Below, one piece after another: positions 13,631-61,306 of a stretch of DNA of 64,000 nucleotides. Under the pieces are notes generated by a model. The model saw nothing but the letters and a program-made list of their open reading frames with translations, made no database searches and had not been told where the DNA came from. How positions within the stretch are numbered: position 1 is the stretch's first letter; each line of letters begins with the position of its first letter. Position numbers and translations under genes: made by a program. Origin of the DNA: a virus; IMG/VR virus record IMGVR_UViG_3300036831_000067, positions 1 through 64,000 of that record; one strand, written 5' to 3'.

Positions 13631-13662
13631 CTGTAGACCGTCTGCTCTTATGGCCTTAAGGG
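13631..13662 (+). promoter_or_regulatory. Late-type promoter motif 1
   Basis: CTGTAG (13631-13636) and TTAAGGG (13656-13662). First member of the CTGTRN...TAAAGG family, directly after the strong terminator and before the gene at 13675. Confidence 0.6.
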
Positions 13663-13674
13663 TAGGAGGCCTTC

Positions 13675-14271
13675 ATGAAGTTCATCAGTTCCCGGCAACG
13701 GGAAACCGAAGCGACCCATCGCCGTTTAGCGGCCGAAGTCAAGAAATTCCGTGCGGGCGAGCAAGGCTGGTTCGATGGCACTCCGCAGTCGGTGGACCGG
13801 CGCCTGGTGGCCTGTAATCGGGCTCTGGCGGCCGCCAGGGGCGCCCTGGAGCGCGACCCGGTTGATCCGTACCCACTGCAGATTGTCGGGCATCTGGAGG
13901 ATGATCAGCGTGCGCTCGTGGGACTGCGCGAGGATCTGCTCACCGGCTGTGCCGACCGGGATCCGGTGCGTACCGCATCCGCCCCCGGCGCACCTCCGTT
14001 GTCGCGCGAGATGCAGCGCTGGGTGACCCTGACGTCTTCCCAGTTCGTCCAGGCCAATGCCGACTGCGTGCACTATCCCCACGAGCTGGCCATCCGGGCC
14101 CGCGACTACGCCAGTAGAGCGGCGTCGACTCATTTGCAGTGCCGCGAGGTGACGGCGGCGTTCGTCGATGCGGTGCTGGCCCGGGCCCGTGATGTTCCGC
14201 AGCCACGTCCGCACAACAAGACGGCCGCGCGCGATGTCTGCGATCTCGATGGTGCGGTGATGTTCCTGTAA
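13675..14271 (+). CDS. Hypothetical protein at head of late block, 198 aa
   Basis: The 198-residue mostly helical protein has several conserved-looking helices (RQRETEATHRRLAAEVKKF, ACNRALAAARGALERD, ALVGLREDLLTGC) and basic patches. GTAGGAGG lies 5 bases before ATG 13675, and late motif 1 precedes it. It could be a small structural or terminase-accessory protein by position, but no family is recognised. Confidence 0.6.
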   Translation: MKFISSRQRETEATHRRLAAEVKKFRAGEQGWFDGTPQSVDRRLVACNRALAAARGALERDPVDPYPLQIVGHLEDDQRALVGLREDLLTGCADRDPVRTASAPGAPPLSREMQRWVTLTSSQFVQANADCVHYPHELAIRARDYASRAASTHLQCREVTAAFVDAVLARARDVPQPRPHNKTAARDVCDLDGAVMFL

Positions 14272-14289
14272 CCCTGGAAGGGGGGTCTG

Positions 14290-14475
14290 ATGCTGAGCTT
14301 GGCTGAGCGTGAGGAGATTCGTCAGGTTGCCTATGACGCTATCGCCGAGCTGGAACGTCAGATCTATGAGTGTGCGGGGTCCTACAGCTACCTGTGCTTG
14401 ATTGACGGCGCGGTGACTTTTACCCATCACCCGGTGGGACGTGTGTTGCGCTATATTCCGCGCCCGGTGGCCTGA
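14290..14475 (+). CDS. Hypothetical protein, 61 aa
   Basis: The 61-residue protein has an N-terminal helix (LAEREEIRQVAYDAIAELER) and a beta-like second half (YSYLCLIDGAVTFTHHPVG). GGAAGGGGGG precedes ATG 14290. It lies in the presumed lysis module next to small membrane proteins. No known family. Confidence 0.5.
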   Translation: MLSLAEREEIRQVAYDAIAELERQIYECAGSYSYLCLIDGAVTFTHHPVGRVLRYIPRPVA

Positions 14476-14484
14476 AAGGCGATC

Positions 14485-14769
14485 ATGTTCAGTATCGGAC
14501 CGACGAGCTTTTATCCACTGCTCGATACGCTGCTGCTGCTGATCATCATCGGTTGGCTGATTTGGCGTTACGTCAGTCTCAATAAGGCCCGCGACAACGA
14601 CATCGTCAAGATCACCGACACCATCAATGCCTTGCGTTATCGACAAAAGGCTTTGGAGGCGATTGTTTTACAGCACCATCGTCATCATCCCGGTGCCGGT
14701 GAGTTTCCTCTGGTCGACGACGAGTTTGACGATCTGGAGCCCCCCGGTGCCCAACCAGCTCAGCCTTAA
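14485..14769 (+). CDS. Small membrane protein, holin-like candidate
   Basis: The 94-residue protein has one hydrophobic segment at about residues 10-28 (YPLLDTLLLLIIIGWLIW), then a helical cytoplasmic part with a His-rich loop (HHRHHPG) and an acidic tail. One membrane span followed by a coiled region fits a class III holin or a holin partner. Its 3' end overlaps the next gene by 23 bases. The role is inferred from topology and the neighbouring lysin B. Confidence 0.5.
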   Translation: MFSIGPTSFYPLLDTLLLLIIIGWLIWRYVSLNKARDNDIVKITDTINALRYRQKALEAIVLQHHRHHPGAGEFPLVDDEFDDLEPPGAQPAQP

Positions 14770-15136
14770 CGCACTGCAGGCCGTCGCCTATGCCGGTCTC
14801 GGCGGTGGTCTGGGGGCCGTCGGGGCGGCGTGGATCACGGCCCGCGCCGGGCGCGATCACGACAAGGCCGATGCCGCTGCTCAGCTCACCAAGGCTGCCT
14901 CGGCACTGACCGATCGGCTGGTCAAGCGCAATGCCGATTTGTCCGCCGACAACGGTCGGCTGCGGCGCACGTTGCTGGATCTGATCGAGCGCATCGACGT
15001 GGTGGTGCAGCAGTCGCGCCGGGAGGTCACCGACGACAAGGGGCCGCGTCTGATGATTCCGTTGCTGTACGCACTGGAAAAGGCCAATGACCGGGCCCAG
15101 CGGGTGCTAGCCGGGGCCGAGGACAGCCCGGCCTGA
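14747..15136 (+). CDS. Membrane protein, possible holin partner, 129 aa
   Basis: GTG 14747 has GGAG 6 bases upstream and begins inside the preceding gene. A hydrophobic Gly/Ala-rich span (LQAVAYAGLGGGLGAVGAAW) opens the protein, followed by a long amphipathic helix (AAAQLTKAASALTDRLVKRN, LLDLIERIDVVVQQ). An N-terminal anchor and a coiled-coil tail next to another small membrane protein suggest a paired holin or spanin-like function. A longer start at GTG 14690 cannot be excluded. Confidence 0.5.
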   Translation: MPNQLSLNALQAVAYAGLGGGLGAVGAAWITARAGRDHDKADAAAQLTKAASALTDRLVKRNADLSADNGRLRRTLLDLIERIDVVVQQSRREVTDDKGPRLMIPLLYALEKANDRAQRVLAGAEDSPA

Positions 15137-15203
15137 CCTGTAGCGCAGCAGATCCTGGGCAGGAAGAAGTGAGGGGGCCGTTCCCCGACAAGGAAGGCAA
15201 GCC

Positions 15204-16501: not shown

Positions 16502-16503
16502 CC

Positions 16504-16938
16504 GTGAGCGTGTTCTCTCCCCTGCAGCATTCGTCGTGGCACTGGCACCCCCGCGTCAAGACCGGTGGCCAGCTTCCGATCGCCGACCGCGCCGTGGACA
16601 CGGTGGTGGCCTTCCTCGGATCGTTTCGGTATCTGGCGTGGCAGACGGTCGCCCTGGTGATATGGGTGCTATTGAACGTGCGTTGGGCGATCCCCCAACT
16701 GATGATGCATCCCTGGGACCCGTACCCGTTCATCTTCTTGAACCTGGCGATGAGCGCGCAGGCCGCCTATGCAGCTCCGTTGATCCTGGCGGCCGGTATC
16801 CGCGCGGACGCCAAGCGTGAAGCAGTGGCGGCCGAGACCCATGAGGGTGTGGCGGAGCTGCGCCAGCACGCTCAGGAGAGCCGCGCGCAACTGCGCGAAC
16901 TGCAGGACAAGGTTGACCGGTTGGTGGCGCACCTGTAA
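16504..16938 (+). CDS. DUF1003-type membrane protein
   Basis: GTG 16504 starts a 144-residue protein with the DUF1003 layout: AVDTVVAFLGSFRYLAWQT, a first span, DPYPFIFLNLAMSAQAAYA, a second span LIL, then a C-terminal amphipathic coiled coil. DUF1003 proteins are small two-span membrane proteins also found in bacteria. Its place right after lysin B suggests a holin-like or membrane-signalling function in lysis, though the family has no proven activity. Its stop lies in late motif 2. Confidence 0.75.
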   Translation: MSVFSPLQHSSWHWHPRVKTGGQLPIADRAVDTVVAFLGSFRYLAWQTVALVIWVLLNVRWAIPQLMMHPWDPYPFIFLNLAMSAQAAYAAPLILAAGIRADAKREAVAAETHEGVAELRQHAQESRAQLRELQDKVDRLVAHL

Positions 16939-16966
16939 CCCGTCTACTTTGCGCACAGATAAAGAG
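16933..16966 (+). promoter_or_regulatory. Late-type promoter motif 2
   Basis: CTGTAA (16933-16938, including the stop codon) and TAAAGA (16960-16965), spacing 2 bases longer than the norm. It precedes the head module starting at 17002. Confidence 0.5.
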
Positions 16967-17001
16967 AAAGGGCAGTTATCTGGCGGAATCAGGGGTCGAA
17001 A

Positions 17002-20862: not shown

Positions 20863-21230
20863 TCGCCTCGGTGTGTCACAGCTGTAAGAAGCTGGCCGAC
20901 GTGGTATATACCGACAGGCTGGGACTGGGGTACTGCGTTCGGTGCCTGCCCAGCCTCCCGGTGACCAGCGAGATGCTGGGCCTGCAGTACCTGATGACGA
21001 CAGTGCCGTTCAAGGAGGGCGATCGCGTGCAGTGCCGGACCGGCGGAGTCATCTTCGACGGCGTCGGCACCGTGCAGGAGGTCTCCTTCGACCTGGAGCA
21101 TGGCGGCACGCTGATCTTCCCGATGTTCCGGGTGAGCATCGATGAGCCCGCCGACGAGCTGAGCCCGGCCGAGGGTTGGTACAGTGAAATTTGTTTAGCT
21201 AGGGTAAAAGATGACGCTCACAGTAGCTGA
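20859..21230 (+). CDS. Small zinc-ribbon protein before portal, 123 aa
   Basis: GTG 20859 overlaps the preceding stop. Residues 6-9 (CHSC) and about 28-31 (CVRC) form a zinc ribbon; then a KEGDRVQCRTGGVIFDGVGT segment reads as an SH3-like or KOW-type strand set. The end overlaps the HNH gene by 20 bases and its last codons are AT-richer, probably part of the HNH insertion. Function unknown. Confidence 0.6.
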   Translation: MIASVCHSCKKLADVVYTDRLGLGYCVRCLPSLPVTSEMLGLQYLMTTVPFKEGDRVQCRTGGVIFDGVGTVQEVSFDLEHGGTLIFPMFRVSIDEPADELSPAEGWYSEICLARVKDDAHSS

Positions 21231-21663
21231 ACGGGCGGAATCGTATCGACAGCGGGGATTGAGAATAGGTGCTGTCCAGAAGGGCATACCTAAGATCCGG
21301 TGTCAGCCAGGTTGTCAATGCAATAAGCATCGTGATGGAACCCAAGGCCGACGTTTCAACAAGCAGAAAGGTTACTTTGTTCTAGTTGGCATCGTTCACC
21401 CTTTGACCGGTCGAGGTGAATTAAGTGGTCCTGTTTTCGAACATCGAATGGTTTTGTGGGACAAGCTCGGATGTCGGTCTCTGGATTGTGTTCATCCGTG
21501 TTATTGGTGCGGGAAACCTTTAATCTGGGCAACGATTAAGGCTGATCATCTTGATGGAGACAGGCTCAATAACGATCCTGAGAATTTAGAGCCTTCCTGT
21601 AATTCCTGCAACATTCGACGCGGAAGGGCTGGTAGCCCGATCGACTGGAAGCCCACGCGATGA
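21211..21663 (+). CDS. HNH homing endonuclease
   Basis: The 150-residue protein has a beta-beta-metal type HNH core: HPCYWCGKPL, then ADHLDGDRLNNDPENL and SCNSCNIRRG, i.e. two CxxC pairs around the D-H and N residues that bind metal and DNA. An N-terminal CQPGCQCNKH cluster may bind DNA. The gene is distinctly AT-richer than its neighbours and sits between two tightly spaced head genes, overlapping portal by ATGA. This is typical of a free-standing homing endonuclease; a target in this or a related phage is expected. Confidence 0.88.
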   Translation: MTLTVAERAESYRQRGLRIGAVQKGIPKIRCQPGCQCNKHRDGTQGRRFNKQKGYFVLVGIVHPLTGRGELSGPVFEHRMVLWDKLGCRSLDCVHPCYWCGKPLIWATIKADHLDGDRLNNDPENLEPSCNSCNIRRGRAGSPIDWKPTR

Positions 21664-24682: not shown

Positions 24683-24734
24683 GGTTCCGGAGTACGGTGT
24701 TCATGATCCCCCTCCTACAGAAAGTTGATCCGCG

Positions 24735-25031: not shown

Positions 25032-25593
25032 TTTCTACCGGAGGGCCGACGCCTCCCAGGCGCAGGCCACCGGAGGCATGGTGGCCTTGTTCCCCCGGTC
25101 GGACTACGCCGAGATGCTGGCTGTGCCCGGTGGCGAGGACATCGATGCGCTGCACTGCACCCTGGCCTTTCTCGGCCAGGATGTCACCGACATGTCCGAC
25201 GGGAACCTGGGAGCGGCCGTGGGCGCCATCGCCGATTCCTACACCTCGATCGAGGCCAACGTCTTCGGGCACGCCATCTTCAACCCCGACGCACCCGGTG
25301 ACGGAGACGATCCGGCCGGGGTGTACTTGTTGACCGATTCCCCCGAACTGGACAAGGTCTACAACGAAATCATCGATGCCGTCGAAGGCGCCTTTCCGAT
25401 ACCCGAGCAGCACGTTCCCTGGATCCCTCACGTGACTTGCAGCTACGGGCGCCCGCCCCTGGTCGGGCAGTACACCGGGCCGATCATCTTCGACCGGCTG
25501 GGCTTCGCGTTCGCCGGTGACACCAGCTTCTACCCCCTGGTGGGGGCAAGCCTTAACGCTTCGGTAGCCAGCTTGACACCCTGGTCCCTGTAG
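25024..25593 (+). CDS. 2H phosphoesterase superfamily protein
   Basis: The 189-residue protein carries both signature H-x-T motifs: HCT at residues 44-46 (LHCTLAFLGQ) and HVT at 136-138 (WIPHVTCSYG), with the ~90-residue spacing normal for the fold. Such enzymes hydrolyse cyclic 2',3' or 3',5' phosphodiesters or ligate RNA. Phages encode them as head-module passengers and also as Acb1, which destroys CBASS cyclic nucleotides. Which applies cannot be told from the sequence. GTG 25024 is the start that keeps the overlap. The stop lies inside late motif 3. Confidence 0.85.
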   Translation: MTDFYRRADASQAQATGGMVALFPRSDYAEMLAVPGGEDIDALHCTLAFLGQDVTDMSDGNLGAAVGAIADSYTSIEANVFGHAIFNPDAPGDGDDPAGVYLLTDSPELDKVYNEIIDAVEGAFPIPEQHVPWIPHVTCSYGRPPLVGQYTGPIIFDRLGFAFAGDTSFYPLVGASLNASVASLTPWSL

Positions 25594-25620
25594 ATCGGCC
25601 GCCTCCCGCCCAAAAAAGGG
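25588..25620 (+). promoter_or_regulatory. Late-type promoter motif 3
   Basis: CTGTAG (25588-25593, including the TAG stop) and AAAAGGG (25614-25620), followed by TAGGAGG and ATG 25636. Confidence 0.6.
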
Positions 25621-25635
25621 TAGGAGGATGCCGCG

Positions 25636-28600
25636 ATGACCCAGCTTTTCACCGCACACGGCCTCGGCGACGTCATCAAGACCGATACCGTGCGTGGACG
25701 CACCAGTTACCTGGTTAAAGGCACGGGCTTTAAGGTGTGGGTGGACGCGACGAAGTGCCGTGTCGCCACCGAGGAGGGCGGCGCTGCTCCGGAACAGCTG
25801 TTCACCAACACCTTCAGCCCGGAGAAGTATCTCGATCCCGAGACGGCCATTCGCAGCGGCTCCGACGCGTTCTCTTACGAGCCGCCGATCCACGTCCAGG
25901 ACAACTCGACGACGCTGCCCTACGATCCCACTCCGCAGTTTCCCGTCGACATGTTCACCGAGCAGACCATCCAGCCCGGTGAGCAGGAGATCGACCCCGA
26001 GAAGCGGTTGTCCCCCAGCGACTCGCGCTCCCAGAGTGATCGGCGCCCAGAACACCCCTGGCCGAGCCCGGACCCTCAGCTGTTCGCGGGTGCCTATCAC
26101 CAGGCCCTCGACGAGCGCGAGAGGGGCTTCAGCCCCCAAGGCCCCTCCGGGGGCGATCTCGACCCGTTCACCACGGCCCCCCGGCTGCGTTCCGAGGACG
26201 AGCCGGTCTATCCCTTCGACAAGGTCTCCCCGCGTGGGCTGACCACCCACGAGATGGATCCTGACGAGCAGTACTGGTATCACGACCCGGAGGCCGGTGC
26301 CTGGCGCAACCCGTATCGCCACTACGAGGACATGCGCCACGTCAAGGTCAATCCGCGCGGGACCGACCGGGAGAACATGTACGGCCCGGCCTACATGGGC
26401 TCGGTGATCGACCCCAACCTGCCGACCGGCAGCTTCCACGTCGCCGGGCTCTCCGACCGTTACGCCGACATCCCGGCCGCTCGAGAGGACCCCAACGATC
26501 CGGCGGTGGCCTTCCGGGTCAACCCGCTGGCCTTCCTGCAGCGCCACGCCGCCATTCACGAGGCCCTGGATGCGCCTACCGGTGAGCTGATGGACGCGGT
26601 GCTGGCCGACCGCAGGCTGTTCATCTCGGCCTGGCGTGACGTGCACGCCAAGGCCATGCGGCTGCGCCGCGAGGGCCGGGTCCACATCAAGCAGTCCACC
26701 CCGGAGGCGATCTACGCCACCGTCCAGGGTGATCACCACTTCTACGACACGATCATCATCCGGGGCAACGTGTTCGACCTGGGCGGTCAGTCGGTCACCG
26801 CCTGGCGGTGCGGCTGCAAGTGGGGCCAGTGGGCGTTCAAGCGCAAGCTCACCTACGTCGGCCGGTTCTGCAGCCACGCCCTGGCCACCTATCACGAGAT
26901 GCAGCACCTGCACAGCCGTGGCAACGGCGGCACCGGTTTCCGCAACCCCTACACCCGCAAGCACACCTCCTCGGTGGTCGACGACTTCAAGTCCTGGGCC
27001 CGCGACAACGGCCAGCTCATCGACGAGACCAGCCTGCCCAACTTCATCTCCCAGTCCGACACGGACGAGGACGAACGGCTCACCAAGGAGCAGGTTGAGC
27101 AGCTCTACGACTACGTCGAGGGCAACCAGGAGGAGACCCCAGAACGTAAGTTCGATATCGATTACACGCTGGATCCCGACGAGGCGTATAAGACAGCCGA
27201 TGCCTTACGCACCCAGCCGCGCAGCCTGACCCCGGATCTGCAGTTCGTGCCCGAGGGCGAGGACGAGCACTTCGTCGACGTCGAGAAGGACGATCGCAAG
27301 ACCACCGGTCCCGGCCAGATCATGCACGGTGGCCAGCACAGGCTGGATGAGGCCACGGGTATCGTTTCCAACCCATATACAGGAGATGAGAGGGGCAAAT
27401 TCGAGGGGAACCCCCTCGGGCACGGCCACTGGGTTCCAGGAGACACCACTCCACAAGAGCCCGACATCGAGCACTTCGCGGCACTGCAGCGTCACTGCGA
27501 CGACAACTGCCTGCCCTACCCGTCGGAGCTGTCCCGGTTCTTGATGCACGGCGATGTCGAGGAGTTCCGCCCCGATACCGGTGAGGCTGCCGGACGATTG
27601 GACAAGTTGCGTGATCTGATTGCCGAGCCCACCGAGGACCACTTCGGTGACATGCCCGCCTACAACGACAAGATCCGTGACCTCGTCGACGAACTGCACG
27701 ACGAGGGTGTGGGCGCCGACAACCTGGTGGCCAGCCGCCGGTTCGAGGGCGACGGGTCCTTCATGGGCGAGGGTGGCGGCGACTGGATGGATCACGGGTT
27801 CGCGGGCTCGGGGTACGACCCCAAGGAGTGGTACCAGTCCTCTGATGACCCCGACGGGTACATCGAGAAGCATGAGCGCCCCCGGTTCCAGGACGTCACC
27901 AACCTGCCCGACGGCGACATCATCAAGTACAACGATTCCGACGGCCCGGTGACTAAGCCACGGGAGGCCTGGCGTCAAGCCGATGCCTGGTCGAACGAGA
28001 CTTCTTCGGCCACTCCCCCGGCCCAGAACACGGCGCCCGGTGACATGGGGGAGATGAGCGGCGGGCAGCCCCTGGTGCAGGATCCCGGGACCGAGGACCC
28101 CGGTCTTGTCACGGGCCGTAATTTCTTTGGTGACGACGATGCCGACATGGGTTTGGATGGTGTCGGGAACACTACTCCGTCGGCCACGGTGACCAATCCC
28201 GGCGACATGAGCGCGCAGACCGGCGGGGCCGGGTCGGGTGACTATATGCACCCGCAGTCCTCCGAGAACATTCAGTACTCCCAGCGGATGCAGCAGCATC
28301 GCCGCAAGCGCGCGGATAAGCCGCGCCCGCCTTCGGTGCGCCGCCTGGGCTATGACACCACCACCCTGCCCCCGGGCTGGGGAGACGTTCCCGAGAGCAG
28401 CGATGATGACGACCCGACGTCGGCGATCCCCGGGGCCGACGAACTCAAGAAGCAGATGCCCAAGATGCCCGACCTGCCGGGCACAGAGCCGGGCGCATCC
28501 CCTTCGGGCTCACCCCCGGCCGCCAGTGCGACCTCCGACGTCGCTCCCGAGCTGATGGCGGTGGCGGGCACCGGCGACCACGGCTGGCGTCGCTGTGACC

Positions 28601-29004
28601 GGCCGCCGGAGAACTTCGGCTATGACGGCCCCTCCGTCGGGTTGTCCATGCACGGGGGCACCGATGACAGCTCTGACGTGGTTCGTGACTTTCACGCGAG
28701 CATGGGTGCCCAAGCCTACGCCCGGGGTGGCGGGGGCGCCGCGCCAGCGAGTTCGCGTCAGGCCGCCATGGCGGCAGCGGGCGGTGCCCTGATGCCGGTC
28801 GGTGCCCGGGGTGGCCGCGAAGCCGGGCGCAATGCCTCCGACGCCGATATTGCGGCACGAGCCAACGAGTTCCTGATGCGTACCGCCGGGCGTAACTATC
28901 CCCCTCACGAGCAGGCCGAGTTGATGGACGAGCAGCCCGTGGGTGGGTACGGCGCACGTAATCTTGATGGCCTCGATCTTCGCGGGACTCACTATGTGCA
29001 GTAG
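25636..29004 (+). CDS. Large SWIM zinc-finger head protein, 1122 aa
   Basis: Residues 392-414 hold a SWIM-type zinc site, C392-x-C394 then C412-x-H414 (WRCGCKWGQW ... RFCSHAL), preceded by FYDTIIIRGNVFDLGG, the usual lead-in strand. The remainder is acidic and low-complexity: a Pro/Glu-rich N-terminal part, a region around 600-830 with FAALQRHCDDNCLPYP, and Gly/Ala-rich C-terminus. SWIM domains bind DNA or proteins; in a head module this may organise packaged DNA or the capsid interior. No enzyme domain is evident. It precedes the capsid protease, from which it is separated by 6 bases. Confidence 0.65.
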   Translation: MTQLFTAHGLGDVIKTDTVRGRTSYLVKGTGFKVWVDATKCRVATEEGGAAPEQLFTNTFSPEKYLDPETAIRSGSDAFSYEPPIHVQDNSTTLPYDPTPQFPVDMFTEQTIQPGEQEIDPEKRLSPSDSRSQSDRRPEHPWPSPDPQLFAGAYHQALDERERGFSPQGPSGGDLDPFTTAPRLRSEDEPVYPFDKVSPRGLTTHEMDPDEQYWYHDPEAGAWRNPYRHYEDMRHVKVNPRGTDRENMYGPAYMGSVIDPNLPTGSFHVAGLSDRYADIPAAREDPNDPAVAFRVNPLAFLQRHAAIHEALDAPTGELMDAVLADRRLFISAWRDVHAKAMRLRREGRVHIKQSTPEAIYATVQGDHHFYDTIIIRGNVFDLGGQSVTAWRCGCKWGQWAFKRKLTYVGRFCSHALATYHEMQHLHSRGNGGTGFRNPYTRKHTSSVVDDFKSWARDNGQLIDETSLPNFISQSDTDEDERLTKEQVEQLYDYVEGNQEETPERKFDIDYTLDPDEAYKTADALRTQPRSLTPDLQFVPEGEDEHFVDVEKDDRKTTGPGQIMHGGQHRLDEATGIVSNPYTGDERGKFEGNPLGHGHWVPGDTTPQEPDIEHFAALQRHCDDNCLPYPSELSRFLMHGDVEEFRPDTGEAAGRLDKLRDLIAEPTEDHFGDMPAYNDKIRDLVDELHDEGVGADNLVASRRFEGDGSFMGEGGGDWMDHGFAGSGYDPKEWYQSSDDPDGYIEKHERPRFQDVTNLPDGDIIKYNDSDGPVTKPREAWRQADAWSNETSSATPPAQNTAPGDMGEMSGGQPLVQDPGTEDPGLVTGRNFFGDDDADMGLDGVGNTTPSATVTNPGDMSAQTGGAGSGDYMHPQSSENIQYSQRMQQHRRKRADKPRPPSVRRLGYDTTTLPPGWGDVPESSDDDDPTSAIPGADELKKQMPKMPDLPGTEPGASPSGSPPAASATSDVAPELMAVAGTGDHGWRRCDRPPENFGYDGPSVGLSMHGGTDDSSDVVRDFHASMGAQAYARGGGGAAPASSRQAAMAAAGGALMPVGARGGREAGRNASDADIAARANEFLMRTAGRNYPPHEQAELMDEQPVGGYGARNLDGLDLRGTHYVQ

Positions 29005-33901: not shown

Positions 33902-33934
33902 CTGTAATCGGGCCGCGTCCGCGAAAGAAAAGGT
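33902..33934 (+). promoter_or_regulatory. Late-type promoter motif 4
   Basis: CTGTAA (33902-33907) and AAAAGG (33928-33933). The stretch GTATCCCTGTAATCGGGCCGCGTCC is close to that around motif 5, so the similarity extends beyond the two boxes. Drives the TIG-fibre gene at 33960. Confidence 0.6.
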
Positions 33935-33959: not shown

Positions 33960-35507
33960 ATGAGCTTGAACACCGATCTCGAACGACTCTTGGCCGACTT
34001 CGTCAAACACGAGCTGGGTGAGCTGGGCGACAAGCTCGTGGGCGCCATCAGTAATTTCAACACTCAATTGGAGGCCGTCATGGCTGAACTGACCGATCTG
34101 AAGGGCCTGGACGCCAGTTTGCAGGCACTCACCACTTCTCTGACCGGGGTCGTATCTCAGGTCACCGGCCTGCAGAGCCAGGTCGACAGCCTGCAGGGCC
34201 AGGTGAGCACCCTCAACACCCAGCTGGCCGCCAGCCAGGCCCAGGTGGCCTCGGACCAGACCACCATCGCCGCCGATGCCGCACAGATCGCGGCCGACCA
34301 GGCGGCGTCCACGGCCGACGCGGCCGAGATCGCCACTCTGCAGAGCGACATCGCCAACCTGACGAGCACGATCCAGAATCTGCAGAACCTGCTCAACCCG
34401 CCCAAGGCGGCTCCTACGGTGACTTCGATCTCCCCGGCCACCGGCGCCTCCGACAACGGCGGGGACACGGTGACGGTCACCGGTACCGGTTTCACCGGTG
34501 CGACCGGCGTGAACTTCGGCACGGTTGCGGCGACGTCCTTCACGGTGGACTCCGACACCTCGCTCACGGCCGTCTCCCCGGCAGGGGCGGCGGGCACGGT
34601 GGACGTGCTCGTGATCGGGCCGGGCGGTTCCTCGGCGGCCAGCGCGACCGACCAGTTCATCTATCCCACCCCGGTCACCCCGCCGCCGCCCTCGGCGCCG
34701 ACGGTCACGGCCGTCTCCCCGGTGGTCGGTACCTCGGTCGGTGGTGGTGACACGGTCGCCGTCACGGGCACCGGGTTCACCGGTGCCACCGCCGTCAACT
34801 TCGGCACTGTTCCGGCCACCTCGTTCACGGTGGTCGATGACAGCGACCTGACGGCCGTTTCTCCGGCCGATTCCGATGCTGCCGGGGGTAACACCGTCGA
34901 CATCACCGTCGTGACGCCAGCGGGCACCTCAGCGGCCGGTGCGGCCGATCAGTTCACGTACCCGACAGCCACCACTCCGACCCCCACCCCTACTCCCACT
35001 CCGACACCCACGGCCCCGACGGTCACGGGTGTGTCTCCGGCCACGGGGACCTCGGCGGCGGGCGGAGACACGGTCGCGGTGACAGGCACTGGCTTCACCG
35101 GGACCACGGCGGTGAATTTCGGGCCCACACCGGCGGCCTCGTTCACCGTCACCGACGACTCCAACCTGACGGCGGTCTCCCCGGCCGACACCAATGCCGC
35201 CGGTGGTGGCGTGGTGGACGTCACAGTCGTTACTCCGGCGGGCACGTCGGCCGTCTCGGCGGCTGATCAGTTCACGTTTCCCGCTGCCGCGACTCCTACG
35301 CCGACTCCGGCGCCGACTCCGGGAAGCACTCCGGTTCCGGTAGACCCCAACGCTGCTCCGGTGCCCGCAGGCACGGTGCCCCCGACCACGATGGTGGTCG
35401 AGGTTCCGGCCGGGGTGGTTCCGGTGGTGGTGCCCTCTGGGGCCGTGGCCGTGACCGCCGGGTCGTTGCCGCCGGACGCGATAGTGACCCCGGTTCAGAC
35501 GTCATAA
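33960..35507 (+). CDS. Coiled-coil and TIG-domain fibre protein
   Basis: Residues 1-145 form a heptad-rich, Ala/Gln-rich coiled coil (LQSQVDSLQGQVSTLNTQLA). Then come three IPT/TIG immunoglobulin-like domains at about 151-238, 247-337 and 352-442, each with VTSISP/VSPATG near its start, a GGDTVTVTGTGFTGAT core and a T-A-V-SP end. PT-rich linkers separate the second and third and lead to a Val/Pro-rich tail. Tandem TIG domains on a coiled stalk fit a capsid fibre or surface attachment protein binding the host or mucus. It follows the major capsid gene and ends in its own terminator. Confidence 0.75.
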   Translation: MSLNTDLERLLADFVKHELGELGDKLVGAISNFNTQLEAVMAELTDLKGLDASLQALTTSLTGVVSQVTGLQSQVDSLQGQVSTLNTQLAASQAQVASDQTTIAADAAQIAADQAASTADAAEIATLQSDIANLTSTIQNLQNLLNPPKAAPTVTSISPATGASDNGGDTVTVTGTGFTGATGVNFGTVAATSFTVDSDTSLTAVSPAGAAGTVDVLVIGPGGSSAASATDQFIYPTPVTPPPPSAPTVTAVSPVVGTSVGGGDTVAVTGTGFTGATAVNFGTVPATSFTVVDDSDLTAVSPADSDAAGGNTVDITVVTPAGTSAAGAADQFTYPTATTPTPTPTPTPTPTAPTVTGVSPATGTSAAGGDTVAVTGTGFTGTTAVNFGPTPAASFTVTDDSNLTAVSPADTNAAGGGVVDVTVVTPAGTSAVSAADQFTFPAAATPTPTPAPTPGSTPVPVDPNAAPVPAGTVPPTTMVVEVPAGVVPVVVPSGAVAVTAGSLPPDAIVTPVQTS

Positions 35508-37442: not shown

Positions 37443-37474
37443 CTGTATCCGACCTGTCGTCGCGTCCTTAAAGG
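37443..37474 (+). promoter_or_regulatory. Late-type promoter motif 5
   Basis: CTGTAT (37443-37448) and TTAAAGG (37468-37474), followed by TAGAGGG. Precedes the small gene at 37502. Confidence 0.65.
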
Positions 37475-37501
37475 TAGAGGGACCTTCGACAGGGAGGATG
37501 C

Positions 37502-43033: not shown

Positions 43034-43065
43034 CTGTGATGCCAGAGATTTGGGCACCTAAAGGG
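43034..43065 (+). promoter_or_regulatory. Late-type promoter motif 6
   Basis: CTGTGA (43034-43039) and CTAAAGGG (43058-43065), then TAGGAGG before GTG 43078. It lies 3 bases after the stop of the repeat protein. Confidence 0.65.
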
Positions 43066-43077
43066 TAGGAGGTTGCC

Positions 43078-43860
43078 GTGAACCGGGAAGTGGACCCTGG
43101 CGGCACATCCTCCCCTACTCGAGAGGATTCCCCGATGAGTGCACCGACCACGCCCAAGAAGGACGCCGCCGAGGCCCGGATCGCCGAACTGGAGCGCCAG
43201 CTCGAAGAGGCCAAGGCCCGGGTCGCCGACGCCGAGGCGAAGGCCCCCATCCCGGTCACGGTGTCCACCGTGGACCAGGACGAGGAGGTCCTAGACAAGG
43301 AGCCCGCCCCGACCACGGTCAACCTGCAGCAGTTGCGCAAGTACGAGGGGACCCTCTACATCAAGAACAACGACCCGCAGCGCGCGTTCAGCTGTCACCA
43401 GGCGATCGGTCAGCACCGGGTGGACTTCGACCTGGAACCGGCCGGGTGCTCGGAGTCGGTGACCATCATGCCCAAGCTCGCGCTGGAGGTCCGTGGACTG
43501 CTGCGGGCGTGGCTGCGCGGATCGATCACCATCTCCACCGACGAGAAGCTCGAAGACGAGATGACGCTGCTGATGAACAAGCACGTGCGGGCGTCTCAGG
43601 CCCGGGTGGACTCGTTCATGACGCAACTGACCCCGAGCGCGACTGAGAAGGACCTGGTGGAGAAGGCGTGCCTGCAGTGTGGCAAGCGCAATCAGTTCGG
43701 CGCCATCGAGGGCGGCCGGGTCTTCCAGACCCTGAAGATGATCAAAGAGGGTATCCCCCCGCTGTGCGACCTGCACACGCATCTGGCTCACCTGTTCCCA
43801 GGAACCCAGATCACCACCGAGAATGGCCAGGAGTGGATGTTCAACTCCCCGGGACGATGA
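43078..43860 (+). CDS. Hypothetical protein with coiled coil and zinc pair, 260 aa
   Basis: The start is GTG 43078 (GTAGGAGG 5 bases upstream) or ATG 43135. The N-terminal coil (EARIAELERQLEEAKARVAD) is followed by VNLQQLRKYEGTLYIKNND, an alpha/beta core, then CLQCGK and LCDLHTHL, a C-x2-C with C and H that could bind zinc. The position between structural genes suggests a virion or assembly protein. No family recognised. Confidence 0.6.
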   Translation: MNREVDPGGTSSPTREDSPMSAPTTPKKDAAEARIAELERQLEEAKARVADAEAKAPIPVTVSTVDQDEEVLDKEPAPTTVNLQQLRKYEGTLYIKNNDPQRAFSCHQAIGQHRVDFDLEPAGCSESVTIMPKLALEVRGLLRAWLRGSITISTDEKLEDEMTLLMNKHVRASQARVDSFMTQLTPSATEKDLVEKACLQCGKRNQFGAIEGGRVFQTLKMIKEGIPPLCDLHTHLAHLFPGTQITTENGQEWMFNSPGR

Positions 43861-44334: not shown

Positions 44335-44789
44335 CCGGCGTCGTCTCCGGGATGAAGTACGGCTGGGCATCCCAGGCGCGGCAGTATGCCCCCACGGGTG
44401 AGCCGGGCATCCACCTGGAGCAGCACGACGTTCCCGGCGTGCGGGGCCCTACTGTCGTCGACTGCCTGCTCTACCGTGACGACGATGGTCAGCTGCTGGG
44501 GATCTTCAACCACTACAACGAGAACAACCTGTGGCAGAAGCCCGGCAGCTGCAACCTGTGGGTGCACCCCGACCACCAGCGCAAGGGGATCGCGACCGAC
44601 CTGCTGCGTGAGGCCGATAAGCTCTGGGAACTGGCCGACCAGGAGAACTACACCCCGGAGGGTAATGCCTGGATCGAGGGCCTGGTCAAGAAGGGCAAAA
44701 TCGATCCGACCAGGACGGGCTCCATCGAGGGAGACCCCTCCTCCATCTCGGGTCGTAAGGTGCCGCGCCCCTGTGATCCTGGCGGATAG
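44331..44789 (+). CDS. GNAT-family N-acetyltransferase
   Basis: The 152-residue protein has a short GNAT core: GQLLGIFNHYNENN (strand pair), then NLWVHPDHQRKGIATDLLRE, the motif A strand and the acetyl-CoA loop (Q/R-x2-G-x-A/G seen as QRKGIA), then a helix (ADKLWELADQ). The C-terminus (PSSISGRKVPRPC) is outside the fold. Acetyl-CoA-dependent acylation of a protein N-terminus, lysine or small molecule is expected; the substrate is unknown. Its place beside virion genes suggests modification of virion or host factors. Late motif 7 overlaps its 3' end. Confidence 0.7.
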   Translation: MTGVVSGMKYGWASQARQYAPTGEPGIHLEQHDVPGVRGPTVVDCLLYRDDDGQLLGIFNHYNENNLWQKPGSCNLWVHPDHQRKGIATDLLREADKLWELADQENYTPEGNAWIEGLVKKGKIDPTRTGSIEGDPSSISGRKVPRPCDPGG

Positions 44790-44801
44790 CGATCTTAAAG
44801 G
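44771..44801 (+). promoter_or_regulatory. Late-type promoter motif 7
   Basis: CTGTGA (44771-44776) inside the end of the GNAT gene and TTAAAGGG (44795-44802), then TGAAG. Precedes ATG 44829. Confidence 0.55.
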
Positions 44802-44828
44802 GTGAAGCCGAAGCACGGAGGGTAGAGG

Positions 44829-46619
44829 ATGCCGATCAATTATCCCAGTGGCAACGACATCTTCACGGTTCCATCGGACCCCGCTGACACCCCGCTCTCC
44901 TCGGCCGGTGACGGCACCCGCAACCTGGTCGAGTCGATCCAGGACATCGGAGGGGCGACCACGGCCCTGGAGATACTGGCGGCCGTCAAGACCCACGCCC
45001 ATGCCGGTAGCACCGACGGAACCCATCAACTTCTTCAGGCCAATACGCACGTCAACGCCGACACCGATGTGTCACCGACATCGATCCACCACACTCTCGG
45101 GACGTCGGGGGATCAGGCGGCACCGGGCAATCACCTCCACGACTACAACGATCTGGTTGACCGGCCGCTGGTCATCTGCACCTCGACCACCCGGCCGACG
45201 AGCCCGTTTCTGGGGCAGATGATCTGGGAGGTCGACAAGAACCGGTTCCGGATCTGGTCACAGTTCTCGGGCAGCGACGTCGCGCAGGTGGGCCTGGTCG
45301 CCACCATCCCCTTCAACCAGACCAACACCCTCAGCCTGGGCACCGGCTGGAACCAGGTCTACTACCCGATCGACGCCACGCTGAACCCTGTCGGGACGGC
45401 CGGTGGGCTGATGGCGGTTCCGGACGGGGCCAATGCCCAATGGGTGTTCGACTACGCGCCCTACGGCGCCGGGGGCAAGGATCTGGTGTGGCCGCCGACC
45501 GGTTGGCCGTGGCCCTACGTCCAGGGCCGCTGCCGTGCACAGCGGACCAACACCGTCGATCGCCATACGCTGACCGATGACCAGTCCCTGACCTGGGTGG
45601 CCGGGCCGACCGTGATGCCGGGCGACAATGCATGGCCGCCCAACCCGTCGGCCAACGATTGCTATCTGCGGATGTCAGATGACGGCCAGTCCTACATCCG
45701 GGTGTCATACAGTTTTGTGCCCGGAATCGTGCTCAGGTTCTGGGTCCTCACCATTCAGCTCGGGTATCCCTTTTACCCCCCAACCGAGACGGTCATGGTG
45801 TACTACACCACCAGCGGGATCGAGAATGAGCAACTGCTGGGAACGGTGCAGGTACCCAATTTCGATCCCTGGTCGACTTATCAGGTGGATATTTCCGGGC
45901 GCACGCTGCTTTTCTACAACGACTCGAATTACATCGGGCGAATCACCGACACCCAAAACGTCACCGCGATGGGCTCCAACAACCGTGGGTGGGGGATAGG
46001 CATGACGGTGGGCCGGGACCCGAGCTGGGCTGATACGGTGGCGTGTCACCCTACCCTGGTGCACAGCGTCACGATCCGCGACATCGTCTACTACACCGGT
46101 TCCCCGGTCTGGCAGATCCTGCCCGTCGGGCTGGTGCCCATCGTGCGCCTGCAGCAGACCATTCCCCAGACGCTGGATCACGCCGGGTCGATCATCGAGT
46201 GGAACACCGCCGTCGAGGACAACTTCGGGTTCTTCAACAAGGCCGCTTCGACAACCGACCTCGTGGTCGCCGACGGGTGCGCGGGTTTGTACGATGTCGA
46301 GGCCACCCTGCAGATGGGCACCGACTTCTACCCCGACTCGGGCACCGTCGTCTTCCTGCTCAATGGCCTGGCCACCGACGTGCGCCAGCAGGCGTCGACG
46401 CCGGGGTACGGATCAGGCTCCAAGGGCCAGAACACCAAGGGGGGCGCCCAGAGCATCACCGTCCCGGTGTCGGGCAAGCTGCGGCTGGCCGACGGGGACG
46501 TTCTGCAGGTCCAGGTCTACTACACCTCGGCGCAAAGCGAGTGGGACCAGATCGTCTCCTACTCGGATCCGGCCGCCAACATTGTGTCGACTCTCAAGAT
46601 CAAGTTCCTCTCACCGTAG
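44829..46619 (+). CDS. Tail fibre or appendage protein, 596 aa
   Basis: The N-terminus (MPINYPSGNDIFTVPSDPAD, then VAAVKTHAHAGSTDGTHQLL with two His patches) is like phage fibre or baseplate attachment segments. A central carbohydrate-binding-like beta region follows (WPPTGWPWPYVQG, YIRVSYSFVPGIVLRFWVLT) with a C-terminal GTVVFLLNGLATDV sandwich. The NYPSG start recurs at 46622, suggesting a common docking site. Function is likely host or capsid attachment, inferred from composition. Confidence 0.6.
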   Translation: MPINYPSGNDIFTVPSDPADTPLSSAGDGTRNLVESIQDIGGATTALEILAAVKTHAHAGSTDGTHQLLQANTHVNADTDVSPTSIHHTLGTSGDQAAPGNHLHDYNDLVDRPLVICTSTTRPTSPFLGQMIWEVDKNRFRIWSQFSGSDVAQVGLVATIPFNQTNTLSLGTGWNQVYYPIDATLNPVGTAGGLMAVPDGANAQWVFDYAPYGAGGKDLVWPPTGWPWPYVQGRCRAQRTNTVDRHTLTDDQSLTWVAGPTVMPGDNAWPPNPSANDCYLRMSDDGQSYIRVSYSFVPGIVLRFWVLTIQLGYPFYPPTETVMVYYTTSGIENEQLLGTVQVPNFDPWSTYQVDISGRTLLFYNDSNYIGRITDTQNVTAMGSNNRGWGIGMTVGRDPSWADTVACHPTLVHSVTIRDIVYYTGSPVWQILPVGLVPIVRLQQTIPQTLDHAGSIIEWNTAVEDNFGFFNKAASTTDLVVADGCAGLYDVEATLQMGTDFYPDSGTVVFLLNGLATDVRQQASTPGYGSGSKGQNTKGGAQSITVPVSGKLRLADGDVLQVQVYYTSAQSEWDQIVSYSDPAANIVSTLKIKFLSP

Positions 46620-48951: not shown

Positions 48952-49802
48952 TGAGCACCCCGACCGAGCCGCCCGGTAGCACCGATCCTGGGGGCACTGG
49001 CCCCTACGGCCCCACTGCCTTCTGGTCCGACGAGCACCCTCCTGTTGATCTGCTCACCCAGGTCAACGACACCCTGCCCGGGTCCACCCCGGGAGGGCTC
49101 ATCGAGGCGGTCAAGCGCGCGGTGGTCACCGGCCTGCGCGATGCCGTCACCACTGCCGACCTGCAGGTCAACGGCAGCGGGATCTCCATCGATCTGGAGT
49201 ATCCCCTCGAAGAGGAGCGCTACCCGGGCATCTGGGTGCAGTTCTCCATCACCAAATTCACCCGGGCCGGGATCGGCCAGGAGGTGGCCTACCAGGACCC
49301 CAACACCGGGACCTGGACGCCCATTCAGACGTTCACCTTCAGCGGGCGCGTGACGCTGTCGATCGTGGCGCTGACCAACAAGGACCGCGACCAGCTCGCC
49401 GATTCCGTCATCGCGATGCTGGCCTTCACCCGGACCCCGGAAGTCTGGGTCACCCAGCCTTCCCAGGACACCAAGCAGTACCGGGGGCTGCTCGCCTCAC
49501 TGGACAACAATCCCTTCGTCTCGCTGACGCTGAACACCGACGTCATCAACTGCGGTGGTCAGGGTGTTGAGGTGGGGGTGCCCTGGCAACCGGACAAACT
49601 GGCCTACACCGACAACTACTCGTTTGACCTGCTCGGGCAGACCCAGATCCGGTTCATGCACGACGGCGCTTACACGCTGTCCAACGTGAACTACGTGCCC
49701 ATCGTGGTTACTTCGGTTCCCGAACAGGATGTGTTCCCGATTCCGGTCACCTATCCGCCGATCGGCCGGGGCGTTTCCGAGGAGACCCTGCGGACGCTGT
49801 GA
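48951..49802 (+). CDS. Tail terminator-like protein, 283 aa
   Basis: The 283-residue protein is directly upstream of the sheath gene. N-terminal Pro/Gly linker, then a helix (LIEAVKRAVVTGLRDAVTTA), strand pairs (GISIDLEYPLEEERYPGIWV, PIQTFTFSGRVTLSIVALTN) and a long helix (DRDQLADSVIAMLAFTR). This order matches tail-terminator/sheath-terminator folds, which cap the tail at the neck. The stop lies inside late motif 8. Confidence 0.55.
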   Translation: MSTPTEPPGSTDPGGTGPYGPTAFWSDEHPPVDLLTQVNDTLPGSTPGGLIEAVKRAVVTGLRDAVTTADLQVNGSGISIDLEYPLEEERYPGIWVQFSITKFTRAGIGQEVAYQDPNTGTWTPIQTFTFSGRVTLSIVALTNKDRDQLADSVIAMLAFTRTPEVWVTQPSQDTKQYRGLLASLDNNPFVSLTLNTDVINCGGQGVEVGVPWQPDKLAYTDNYSFDLLGQTQIRFMHDGAYTLSNVNYVPIVVTSVPEQDVFPIPVTYPPIGRGVSEETLRTL

Positions 49803-49828
49803 AATAACCTTCCGCGCGACAGAAAGGG
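49797..49828 (+). promoter_or_regulatory. Late-type promoter motif 8
   Basis: CTGTGA (49797-49802, containing the TGA stop) and GAAAGGG (49822-49828), directly before the sheath gene, one of the most highly expressed late genes. Confidence 0.6.
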
Positions 49829-49858
49829 GGAGAGAGGTCCTTTGCGCAGGGAGGCTTC

Positions 49859-51448
49859 ATGACCACTCCGGTTATCACCGCCCCATCCTCGGTGATCGAC
49901 TTCTCCACCTACAAACCCCCAGGTGTGTACGTCAATCCCGTCCCGGGACCGCAGCTGGCCGTTGCCTCTTCGCTGCCCACGGCGGTCGGGTTGTTCGGGA
50001 TGTCGGTGGGTTATCGCCAGTACATCGAGAGCCTGGTCATCAACCCTGACACGAACTCGACCACCCCGGCCATCAACCGGACCCTGTCCAACCAGGGCAT
50101 CCACACCTCGACGATCAAGGTCACCAACCCCAACAGCGGGGCGCAGTACGCACTGGGCACCGACTACACCGTGGTCAATGTCGGCGGTACCACCGGTACC
50201 AGCAATGCCCTGTACACCATCAGCCGGGTGATCGACGGCGGGCACATCACCCAGGGCTCGACCGTGCAGGTCAGCTATCAGTTCACCAACCCCGCCTACT
50301 TCAACCCCACACTGTTCTACACCTACCGCGACATCGTCACGGCCTACGGAGTGCCCTACAACCTGACCACCGGCGCCATTCAGTCCGAGCTGACTCTGGC
50401 TGCCCAGTTCGCCATTCTCAACGGGGCCTATCGGCTCGTCTGCGCCGCCGTGAACCCCGTCACCCCGGGTGCCCCTACCGTTGGCGACTACAACAATGCC
50501 CTGGCCAATCTCGCCAACAACGGCCTGGTCGCGATCGTGGTCTGCTGCAACGGGAGCATGCAGCCGATCCAGCAGCTGGTGCAGGAACACGTCGATCAAC
50601 AGAGCAGGTTCCGCTTCGAGCGCCGAGCCATCCTGGGCATGGACGGGACCGGCACGCCGGTGCCCTCCACCCAGCGCATCAACAACGCCATGGAGCTTTC
50701 CGACCAGCGTGTGATGCTGCTGAGCCCGGCCAGCTTCACCTACTTCTCCACCGAGATCAACCAGACCGTGACGGTGGGTGGGCAGTACATGGCCGCCAGC
50801 CTGGCGGGCATGGCGACCAACATGAGCTGGGCACAGCCGCTCACTCATAAGCTGCCGACCGGCTGGATCGACGTGCCCGAGGTCGAGCCCGAGTCCCAGA
50901 AGGACCTCGAAACCGAGAACGGGCTGTGCGTGATCGAGAAGACCCGGCGCCTGCAGATCTGGGTCCGCCACGGGGTGACCACCGACAACATCGACATGGA
51001 ACACCGTGAATGGTCGATTATCGGTCAGCAAGATGCAATGGTATATCGTTTGCGGGACTATCTTGAGAACGCAAATTTGATTGGCCAGCCGATATACGAT
51101 TACACACTGGTAAATGTCAAGTCATCTGCTGAAGCTGCACTTCAGAGCCTTATTCGTGATGGACTATTGGTCGATTACTACGGGTTGGAAGCGCGCCAGC
51201 TATTGACCAATCCGGACGTAATTGAAGTTAGCTACAGTTGGCTTCCGGCATTTCCCTTGAATTATATTGTCGTGACGTTCAATATCAGCCTCACCTCCGG
51301 CAACCTGACTCAGCAGGGCAGCACCGCCAACATCGCCAACACCACCAACTCGTCGGTGTCGAGGACGGCGGGTCTGATCACTGCCCCGGCCAGCTCCTCG
51401 ATCACCGACTTCGGTGGTCCGGCCAACACATTGCAGAGCACCGTTTAA
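49859..51448 (+). CDS. Tail sheath protein
   Basis: The 529-residue protein fits contractile-tail sheath proteins by length, order and sequence: YKPPGVYVNPVPGP near residue 20, a beta-rich middle domain (tail exposed), ASLAGMATNMSWAQPLTHKL (residues ~315) and the conserved C-terminal half with RLQIWVRHGVTTD and GLEARQLLTNP, leading to a C-terminal strand used for the interlocking sheath mesh. GGGAGG precedes ATG 49859. The segment 51000-51270 is distinctly AT-rich compared with the rest. Confidence 0.85.
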   Translation: MTTPVITAPSSVIDFSTYKPPGVYVNPVPGPQLAVASSLPTAVGLFGMSVGYRQYIESLVINPDTNSTTPAINRTLSNQGIHTSTIKVTNPNSGAQYALGTDYTVVNVGGTTGTSNALYTISRVIDGGHITQGSTVQVSYQFTNPAYFNPTLFYTYRDIVTAYGVPYNLTTGAIQSELTLAAQFAILNGAYRLVCAAVNPVTPGAPTVGDYNNALANLANNGLVAIVVCCNGSMQPIQQLVQEHVDQQSRFRFERRAILGMDGTGTPVPSTQRINNAMELSDQRVMLLSPASFTYFSTEINQTVTVGGQYMAASLAGMATNMSWAQPLTHKLPTGWIDVPEVEPESQKDLETENGLCVIEKTRRLQIWVRHGVTTDNIDMEHREWSIIGQQDAMVYRLRDYLENANLIGQPIYDYTLVNVKSSAEAALQSLIRDGLLVDYYGLEARQLLTNPDVIEVSYSWLPAFPLNYIVVTFNISLTSGNLTQQGSTANIANTTNSSVSRTAGLITAPASSSITDFGGPANTLQSTV

Positions 51449-51467
51449 GGCACTGGGAGGAAACGGA

Positions 51468-51938: not shown

Positions 51939-51962
51939 CCAACAGGTAAAAGGAGAACACAC

Positions 51963-52549: not shown

Positions 52550-52562
52550 GAAGGACTGATCT

Positions 52563-56999: not shown

Positions 57000-57018
57000 G
57001 AACGAAGGAGACGGTGTC

Positions 57019-57192
57019 TTGAGTGGATACGTCAGTAATGTCCCGATCTCGCGCCCTGTGGTGCTGCCCAATTTCCCGCCCGACGTCGACCTCAACGGTA
57101 TCGGGTTCAACTACAACATCGGATTGCTGTACCAGGTGTTCTCTGACCCGCCGTTGATCCGGCTCCCCGCACCCCAACCGCAGCAGCCATGA
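57019..57192 (+). CDS. Small baseplate-region protein with TTG start, 57 aa
   Basis: TTG 57019 has AAGGAG 8 bases upstream and the frame (MSGYVSNVPISRPVVLPNFP..., ending APQPQQP) ends in an ATGA overlap with the next gene. These three features support a translated small protein despite the rare start. It is Pro-rich and may be a connector peptide of the baseplate. Confidence 0.55.
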   Translation: MSGYVSNVPISRPVVLPNFPPDVDLNGIGFNYNIGLLYQVFSDPPLIRLPAPQPQQP

Positions 57193-60700: not shown

Positions 60701-60784
60701 ATAGTGAACGCCGCTGCCGATGCCCTGACCGCAGGGCTGGCCGCCGCCGTGTCTTTGGCCTCCGACATCGCGGCCCCGGGATGA
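57755..60784 (+). CDS. Baseplate hub with transglycosylase-like and NlpC/P60 domains
   Basis: The 1009-residue protein has hub-like ends, roughly residues 60-280 (VRGTLIRKENAASTLLW, TCYMKRAGNWVQTFSGYLDS) and 740-970. Between them are two hydrolase domains. About 370-500: a lytic-transglycosylase/lysozyme-like segment with AMWESTNGPAIRNLY (Glu391) and ACGIFQQEDNGAWGT. About 565-690: an NlpC/P60 endopeptidase with Cys588 in WDCSSLL and His635 in GDHTMLWLGDG. Together they can cut the glycan and peptide parts of the wall during DNA injection. ATGA overlap on each side. Confidence 0.85.
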   Translation: MTVTPGSPGNDPGIVGNVGTPPTATNPFGNSFVQTPVNGTPGSSSGAHPAPPFYVPPGQQTQIGNTTPPPERTLVYSPDVRILVAHNGQQIDVSNDLVRGTLIRKENAASTLLWTCHNKGLRYTNGGLGNQPLLSRMDRVTCYMKRAGNWVQTFSGYLDSIPYLQLYPGLVDFKATCTLKRLLCSWWNPGLPESASLLNQYANETQETAGDGQVTLDVGMGSMLRDILIKVGGWAPQNVHIQNFPQGFLDLLDAQEKQQPANNQQATNFRQMLEGNVSTPAPGQMAGYNSSAGPPGPAGSPGLAGAGPVGSGTMFYVGEIIAATDLAGMGPNVQDQNLARGLQTVSTTGEGSRDNATKEAFQQTQNVATYYAASTRNTDAAIIATATAMWESTNGPAIRNLYNPARPDSQQYKNDGPGYDTRACGIFQQEDNGAWGTTAEQMNPRQAASMFLAALNKFDWKNMDPGVVAYDVQQALNPSTYSAGVDGLIPAATTAVQTLRKTQAGATSSVVPAVSNPLSNVASSTAPALGIGGTGATNTPGATPVVPVSTGSLVGKPNPDSEGAINWAITQLGKPYHYGAAGPDSWDCSSLLQGAFRSIGREIGRDTWHQQTSGIPISPSAIKRGDALQCEGGDHTMLWLGDGTIIEASTDGVPVHRVNAYVQPAQAFGIYRYADNGGPDPSAPFDHTASPGPGNPPYTGYSTTTGAAAGATQEGIAQNLFAYIFDPSRFLTYTSQMYASVPEKDFIDAQPLIQMVQSISGACLRNFASAPNGDFIAYYPDFFGMDGKPAVFTLEDIELKDLTMNFSDDALATHVYVNAADTPQGLENQTMGWLKSLGYATVENTLLYQRMRLVAPGDLENMSGQDLMKRFGVRPLQVTYGTVMAGGGLDFLMAVRIFMTKWAEQYQSSIAMTFMPDLFPSMRVQLSGHNIQFYVSEVTHHFDFEQGFTTSVVATAPSNPNVRNLWPTSNSQVPPVQGGLGSIVNAAADALTAGLAAAVSLASDIAAPG

Positions 60785-61272
60785 CCAATCCCGGATATTC
60801 CCGCGTGCAGCCCACCGCGAACCGGATCCAGCCGGTGGGCATCGTAGCCGTCGACCCGGCCAGTAACACCGCCACGGCGATGACCCTTCAGCGCTCACAG
60901 CTCTCGGTGGACCTGCGCTGGCATGTGGGCTCGGTGCAGGTCACCCCCTCGGTCGGGGAGCAGTGGCTCATCCGCTACCTGGTTACCCCGATCGGTTCCT
61001 ACTGGGTACTGGACTCCAAGATCCCGTTCGGCACCGCCGAAACCCTCACCCCGGTCACCGAGGGTCAACAGCAGATCGGTAACGGCCGGGGGCCGATCCA
61101 GCTGCTCGGTACCCAGATCAACGTCAACGGCCCGCTGGGGGTCCAGGCGGTGACCACGGCCGAGCGGCCCACCGGCGCCCCGGCCGGAACTCATCTCTTC
61201 GACACCACCCTCAACAAGCCGATCTGGTCCACGGGCACCGGGTGGGTGGATGGGTCAGGGACTGCCGTATAG
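60781..61272 (+). CDS. Spike/OB-fold baseplate protein, 163 aa
   Basis: The 163-residue protein has an OB-like beta barrel (PVGIVAVDPASNTATAMTLQ, VQVTPSVGEQWLIRYLVTPI, GSYWVLDSKIPFGT) as in gpV/gp5 central-spike proteins, followed by GPIQLLGTQINVNGPLGV, a beta-helix-like segment, and GTHLFDTTLNKPIWSTGTGW. It probably caps the hub and pierces the envelope. ATGA overlap with the hub. Confidence 0.65.
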   Translation: MTNPGYSRVQPTANRIQPVGIVAVDPASNTATAMTLQRSQLSVDLRWHVGSVQVTPSVGEQWLIRYLVTPIGSYWVLDSKIPFGTAETLTPVTEGQQQIGNGRGPIQLLGTQINVNGPLGVQAVTTAERPTGAPAGTHLFDTTLNKPIWSTGTGWVDGSGTAV

Positions 61273-61274
61273 AC

Positions 61275-61306
61275 CTGTAGCGGTCCAATTTTCCGACCAT
61301 AAAGGG
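61275..61306 (+). promoter_or_regulatory. Late-type promoter motif 9
   Basis: CTGTAG (61275-61280) and ATAAAGGG (61299-61306), followed by AGAGAGGAG and GTG 61324. It lies just after the spike gene stop. Confidence 0.6.

Follow-up and report, generated by a model that had tools for sequence, protein, structure and literature searches.

The window is a 64-kb stretch of a 72,081-base IMG/VR virus record (G000). The portal, capsid, sheath and tail proteins of this virus match those of the cluster C mycobacteriophages (Bixzunavirus and Myrnavirus), of Phrappuccino and of the Gordonia phages Skog and Pupper; judged from its sequence, the virus is a myophage. Genes for HNH or homing-type endonucleases lie directly upstream of the portal gene (21211-21663) and after the baseplate gene (61787-62557), and are probably mobile inserts in the structural module. 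A WhiB-like protein (E = 1.2e-23) is encoded at 1106-1306, in the left gene block.

The pattern CTGT[AG], followed at a distance of 25-28 by AA[AG]G[GA], has 12 matches in the window, all of them on the + strand, compared to a mean of 0.88 and a maximum of 6 in order-3 simulations. Ten of these matches are located 44-93 bases upstream of a gene start and were counted as sites (Table 1). The matches at 21597 and 44556 lie inside ORFs and probably arose by chance, and a match at 3836 was set aside as a coding-region match. A sequence-only reading had listed nine sites, all of which are real; its statement that none occurs before 13.6 kb is slightly wrong, as a good site is present at 10648. This site, the hairpins and the candidate factor described below were absent from that reading. 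Six sites overlap or touch the stop codon of the preceding gene, as had been observed: the stop is contained in the upstream box (CTG-TRR) at 16933, 25588 and 49797 and lies 3-5 bases before it at 37443, 43034 and 61275, while the 44771 site overlaps the end of an ORF. That every site precedes a structural gene is only partly true: LysM-like, tail sheath and baseplate genes and several virion families are found downstream, but no function is known for the gene that follows 13631.

Table 1. Putative late-promoter elements and an associated terminator-like hairpin in the window.
Feature	Position	Strand	Remarks
Additional copy of the element	10648..10681	+	Good site; an ORF ends at 10653, with its stop codon inside CTGTGA; upstream of the ATG at 10692
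Intrinsic-terminator-like hairpin with T7 tail	13577..13603	+	About 30 bases upstream of the 13631 site; end of the left (early-type) gene block
Putative late-promoter element, CTGTAG ... TTAAGGG	13631..13664	+	Upstream of a gene of unknown function
Putative late-promoter element	16933..16972	+	An ORF ends at 16938, with its stop codon inside CTGTAA; followed by the large gene 17002/17026-20862
Putative late-promoter element	25588..25620	+	CTGTAG includes the stop of an RNA-ligase-like ORF; before 25636-29004; strong hairpin
Putative late-promoter element	33902..33934	+	Before 33960-35507
Putative late-promoter element, CTGTAT	37443..37475	+	Before the gene block from 37502; strong hairpin
Putative late-promoter element	43034..43066	+	Before 43078-43860; no significant hairpin
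Putative late-promoter element	44771..44803	+	Overlaps the end of the preceding ORF; before 44829-46619
Putative late-promoter element	49797..49829	+	CTGTGA includes the stop of the ORF ending at 49802; before the tail sheath gene 49859-51448
Putative late-promoter element	61275..61307	+	Before the baseplate gene 61324-61770

The downstream half of the element had been described as an A-rich AAAGG block at all nine sites, its start lying 25-26 bases from that of CTGTR (27 at 16933). An exact AAAGG is indeed found 26-27 bases after CTGT at seven sites, but not at the two others: 13631 carries TTAAGGG, with no AAAGG, and 16933 has AAAGA at +28 and AAAGG only at +34. The conclusion that this spacing is longer than a sigma-70 spacer does not hold, since, measured from hexamer to hexamer (CTGTRR-N17-nnnAAA), most window sites have the ordinary 17 bases.

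At matching loci in related genomes, the consensus consists of (AnC)CTGTRR, 16-20 unconserved bases and a purine block, AAxARGRKxAG. In an alignment of 31 sites, the information is concentrated in AnCCTGTRR, the most conserved part, and in a downstream block RAARAGRGAnAGAG, with a nearly empty spacer in between. This block is also kept at 17 sites located at least 28 bases from the start codon, which indicates that it is more than a ribosome-binding site. It reads TAAAGGG in the lineage of the window and AATAGGTG or AAGAAGA in other lineages. With two conserved boxes on either side of an unconserved spacer of near-constant length (a gap of 16-20 after the 7-base box), the element fits a bacterial-type two-box promoter with near-17-base spacing.

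The element is common to most relatives infecting Mycobacterium and Gordonia. Even distant ones (Phrappuccino, Shelob, Skog, ScoobyDoobyDoo and IMG/VR contigs) keep it at matching loci, and the 25588 copy is retained at the orthologous position in ten genomes. Upstream of the tail sheath gene, it was found in 12 of the 14 genomes compared (the window, its two nearest relatives G001 and G002, Phrappuccino, Shelob, Skog, ScoobyDoobyDoo and five further contigs), some of these matches being weak by score; the spacers are not conserved, and the sheath proteins are ~48-80% identical to that of the window. In this comparison, no element precedes the sheath gene of Stormageddon, and E3 has a partial downstream block at most. 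The LysM-like gene and the large gene upstream of the portal gene show the same conservation pattern.

The element is also recovered independently of the sites chosen by eye. In an unseeded count of spaced pairs of four-base words in the intergenic sequence of the window, G001 and G002, CTGT-22-AAAG ranked second, with 10 occurrences against 0.4 expected. A two-block model trained exclusively on other clades returned nine forward matches and no reverse match in the 72-kb record; eight of them are sites of the sequence-only reading, and these lie in intergenic upstream sequence, which makes up 4.4% of the record, the motif being depleted in coding regions. In G007, which was never used in training, the same model gave 25 forward and three reverse matches, 19 of them upstream of genes. 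Thresholded leave-clade-out models were used here in place of a soft EM on all upstream regions, which drifted to codon phase and the ribosome-binding site; per-genome refits of Skog, E3 and Stormageddon likewise drifted to the ribosome-binding site and were left out. Across ten genomes, the motif is present in 51 of 220 intergenic stretches of the structural module and in 19 of 413 elsewhere (odds ratio 6.3, p = 5.6e-12), with module limits drawn by hand from orthologue positions and genes called by a simple in-house caller. Apart from the clear terminator upstream of 13631, a general pairing of sites with upstream terminators was rejected (2/53 for sites vs. 26/515). Conservation across clades, the bias towards one strand, the positions of the sites and their enrichment in the structural module together give good support to the proposal of a shared late-promoter element. 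On this sequence evidence, it is very probable that the element represents a class of promoters, and the content of the genes downstream suggests that their activity would be late.

A SigA -10 box (TANNNT) is absent from the expected position at all 56 sites, where the 16 bases from the block onward are 80% purine, and a scan for the sigma-70 consensus on the + strand of the window between 10 and 64 kb gave no site. The upstream box, CTGTRR, differs from a TTGACA-like -35 hexamer and thereby departs from SigA/sigma-70 promoters; as it carries most of the conservation, it equally departs from T4-type late promoters, which have a downstream element only and no -35. A search for a T7-type polymerase (PF00940) gave no match in nine genomes, the control genomes being silent too. 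No earlier description of this motif was found in the open-access literature; work reported in the 1990s on promoters of phage I3 could predate it. The involvement of a phage factor, as had been proposed, is supported indirectly, by the 56 sites without a SigA -10 box and by a conserved sigma-region-4 protein in the same phages, but not by the spacing argument. The unusual feature is the purine-rich downstream block lacking TANNNT and not the spacing, so the non-SigA conclusion stands for a different reason.

A sigma region 4 match led to PHROG 2931, whose members gp130 of Phrappuccino and gp160 of E3 are annotated as putative sigma-70 factors. Phrappuccino gp130 scores above the cut-off for PF08281, the other PHROG 2931 proteins below it. 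In the AF2 model (13 sequences, mean pLDDT 81), a region 4 domain spans residues ~50-117, preceded by only ~55 residues; it matches region 4 of SigmaE bound to -35 DNA (1.7 Å over 59 columns) as well as the mycobacterial SigC, SigD, SigL and SigH. Sigma region 2 (PF04542) was not detected in any of 13 phage genomes, while 10 controls were positive. The PHROG 2931 gene follows that of PHROG 2769 in the replication and recombination module. PHROG 2769 (~230 aa, function unknown) precedes it in every examined relative with both.

PHROG 2931 was found in the motif-bearing genomes whose records cover that region; it was not found in G003 or in the window's own record, both of ~72 kb, the latter being a fragment. 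In Stormageddon (L046, 1495-2782), an HNH endonuclease gene takes its place, with PHROG 2769 retained, and the two-block model gives no match with the stricter threshold; with the looser one, no match lies upstream of a gene. E3 possesses PHROG 2931 and few sites. In G009 and G010, the protein has diverged in the region of the recognition helix and sites are few, G009 keeping one before the sheath gene. Given these three exceptions, the link between factor and element is one that we infer, with a single clear co-loss in Stormageddon, and the chances that PHROG 2931 reads CTGTRR are about equal to those that it does not.

The reader of the same late promoters could instead be another protein of the phage, the host holoenzyme in a modified form or an alternative sigma factor of the host, with PHROG 2931 doing something else. 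The missing region 2, in PHROG 2931 and elsewhere, the few sites of E3 and the single co-loss all favor this explanation, but no other tested gene tracks the motif, and it is considered rather unlikely. WhiB was rejected as the factor: it occurs in the motif-free Stormageddon, and none was found in the motif-bearing Phrappuccino, ScoobyDoobyDoo and G002. PHROG 2769 was rejected as the missing region 2: its AF2 model is a bundle of long helices, no sigma factor is among the Foldseek matches listed, and it persists in Stormageddon. The early-type motif GGAAT-N-GTT was discarded as a target of PHROG 2931, since Skog and ScoobyDoobyDoo encode the protein but lack this motif.

At many sites, the spacer and the sequence downstream of the block are complementary, placing the block in the loop of an RNA hairpin. 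Pairing is more stable between a site's own arms than after exchange of arms among sites (-17.2 vs. -14.2 kcal/mol, n = 56), with a z of -7.5 that is somewhat inflated, as related genomes are not fully independent; in the clade of the window alone, z is -3.1. Controls gave -0.8 (motif-free intergenic sequence) and +0.8 (random positions). Within the window, hairpins are strong at 25588 (z -4.0) and 37443 (z -3.2), absent at 43034 and lacking at several sites; at 13631, the block is inside a small hairpin, GGCCUU/AGGCC, covering the ribosome-binding site. The predicted opening of the ribosome-binding site upon removal of the 5' arm exceeds 0.3 at 19% of sites vs. 5% of controls (p = 0.0035). 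As RNA begun at the promoter would be devoid of this arm, read-through RNA is predicted to be translated less than late RNA at this subset of sites.

The hairpin excess, the purine loop close to start codons and the effect on the ribosome-binding site could also indicate an element acting in RNA, as a translation-control or processing hairpin, and not as a promoter. This is improbable: sites without a hairpin retain both boxes, CTGTRR lies outside most stems, and its distance to the block is 16-20 bases regardless of stem length, as for DNA-level spacing.

A role of PHROG 2931 as a Q-like antiterminator at late promoters, and not as reader of the upstream box, is suggested by VIA-align, in which Q of phage 21 (Z 8.0 over 93 residues) is tied with sigma region 4 domains (Z 7.4). 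Such a Z is middling for a helical protein, the sequence profiles match sigma region 4, and ten dispersed sites contrast with the single late promoter of lambdoid phages, making this role highly improbable. Finally, a chance product of stop-codon context and ribosome-binding sites picked by eye, to which the frequent stop codons in CTGTRR and the four blocks running into the SD sequence might point, has a negligible probability in view of the strand bias, the cross-clade recovery and the conservation of the block away from start codons, and is refuted by the leave-clade-out test.

According to the preferred explanation, a group of actinobacterial myophages (Ceeclamvirinae, Phrappuccinovirus, Skogvirus and relatives from metagenomes) shares a class of late promoters in which (AnC)CTGTRR forms the upstream box and a spacer of normal promoter length separates it from the purine-rich AAxARGRKxAG. 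RNA polymerase would open the DNA and start transcription at or near this block, which host SigA would not read. The promoters are squeezed into gene junctions, so that CTGTRR often contains the stop codon of the preceding gene. PHROG 2931, of region 4 type and with no recognizable region 2, is the most likely recognizer of CTGTRR on the host RNA polymerase, acting with a partner or via a cryptic second domain. Some of the promoters would be embedded in a hairpin that conceals the ribosome-binding site in read-through RNA; RNA begun at the promoter would lack the 5' arm of this hairpin. Taken as a whole, with PHROG 2931 as likely reader and hairpin silencing at a subset of sites, this explanation is judged probable. 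A more far-reaching version is possible but doubtful: an undescribed late-transcription system in which the region-4-only PHROG 2931 reads CTGTRR, a partner replaces region 2 and host polymerase is directed to TATA-less promoters, many of them in silencing hairpins.

In phage T4, late transcription depends on the split sigma factor gp55/gp33, in which gp33 mimics sigma region 4 on the polymerase flap and reads no DNA, the promoters having only an 8-bp downstream element and no -35 (PMC2988020). The present phages resemble T4 in being myophages whose late genes would be transcribed by the host polymerase with phage sigma-like parts, here predicted; they differ in that conservation is highest in the -35-like box and that a sigma-type helix-turn-helix is retained in the region 4 protein. 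SPO1 gp33/gp34 and other two-part phage sigma factors act on two-box late promoters with near-normal spacing. This arrangement is shared here, but the box sequences differ and no region 2 partner was found in the present phages. In T4 gene e and similar genes, a late start is located inside a hairpin hiding the ribosome-binding site in read-through RNA; the predicted arrangement is alike, with a promoter in such a hairpin, but concerns many sites in an unrelated phage group. The start-associated sequences of cluster K are short repeats in mycobacteriophage genomes. Stoperators of cluster A are 13-14 bp repressor sites (PMC9262239). Both are, like the element, short actinophage repeats, often near gene starts, but neither has the CTGTRR-spacer-purine arrangement.

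A second promoter-like class is present in early-type regions: GGAATA-N-TGTTC occurs at 1358, 5834 and 9085 of the window and at 71681 of the full record (G000), followed at 5834 and 9085 by SigA-like GATAAT/TATAAT and CGGAAGGGAG. What looks like a counterpart of this class is seen in Shelob, where GGGAATGA-N-CGTTATACT occurs at least 14 times, mainly at 11-24 kb. Stormageddon (L046), which lacks the late element, has repeated CTTGC-N-TGTATATT sigma-70-like sites instead.

With a promoter consensus predicted for the Bxz1-like group, dozens of sites mapped in the isolated laboratory phages Shelob, Phrappuccino and Skog, and a candidate factor named, late gene control in these phages becomes directly testable. 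If true, the known split sigma factors would gain a further type, in which a protein consisting of region 4 only recognizes a -35-like box and no canonical -10 is present.
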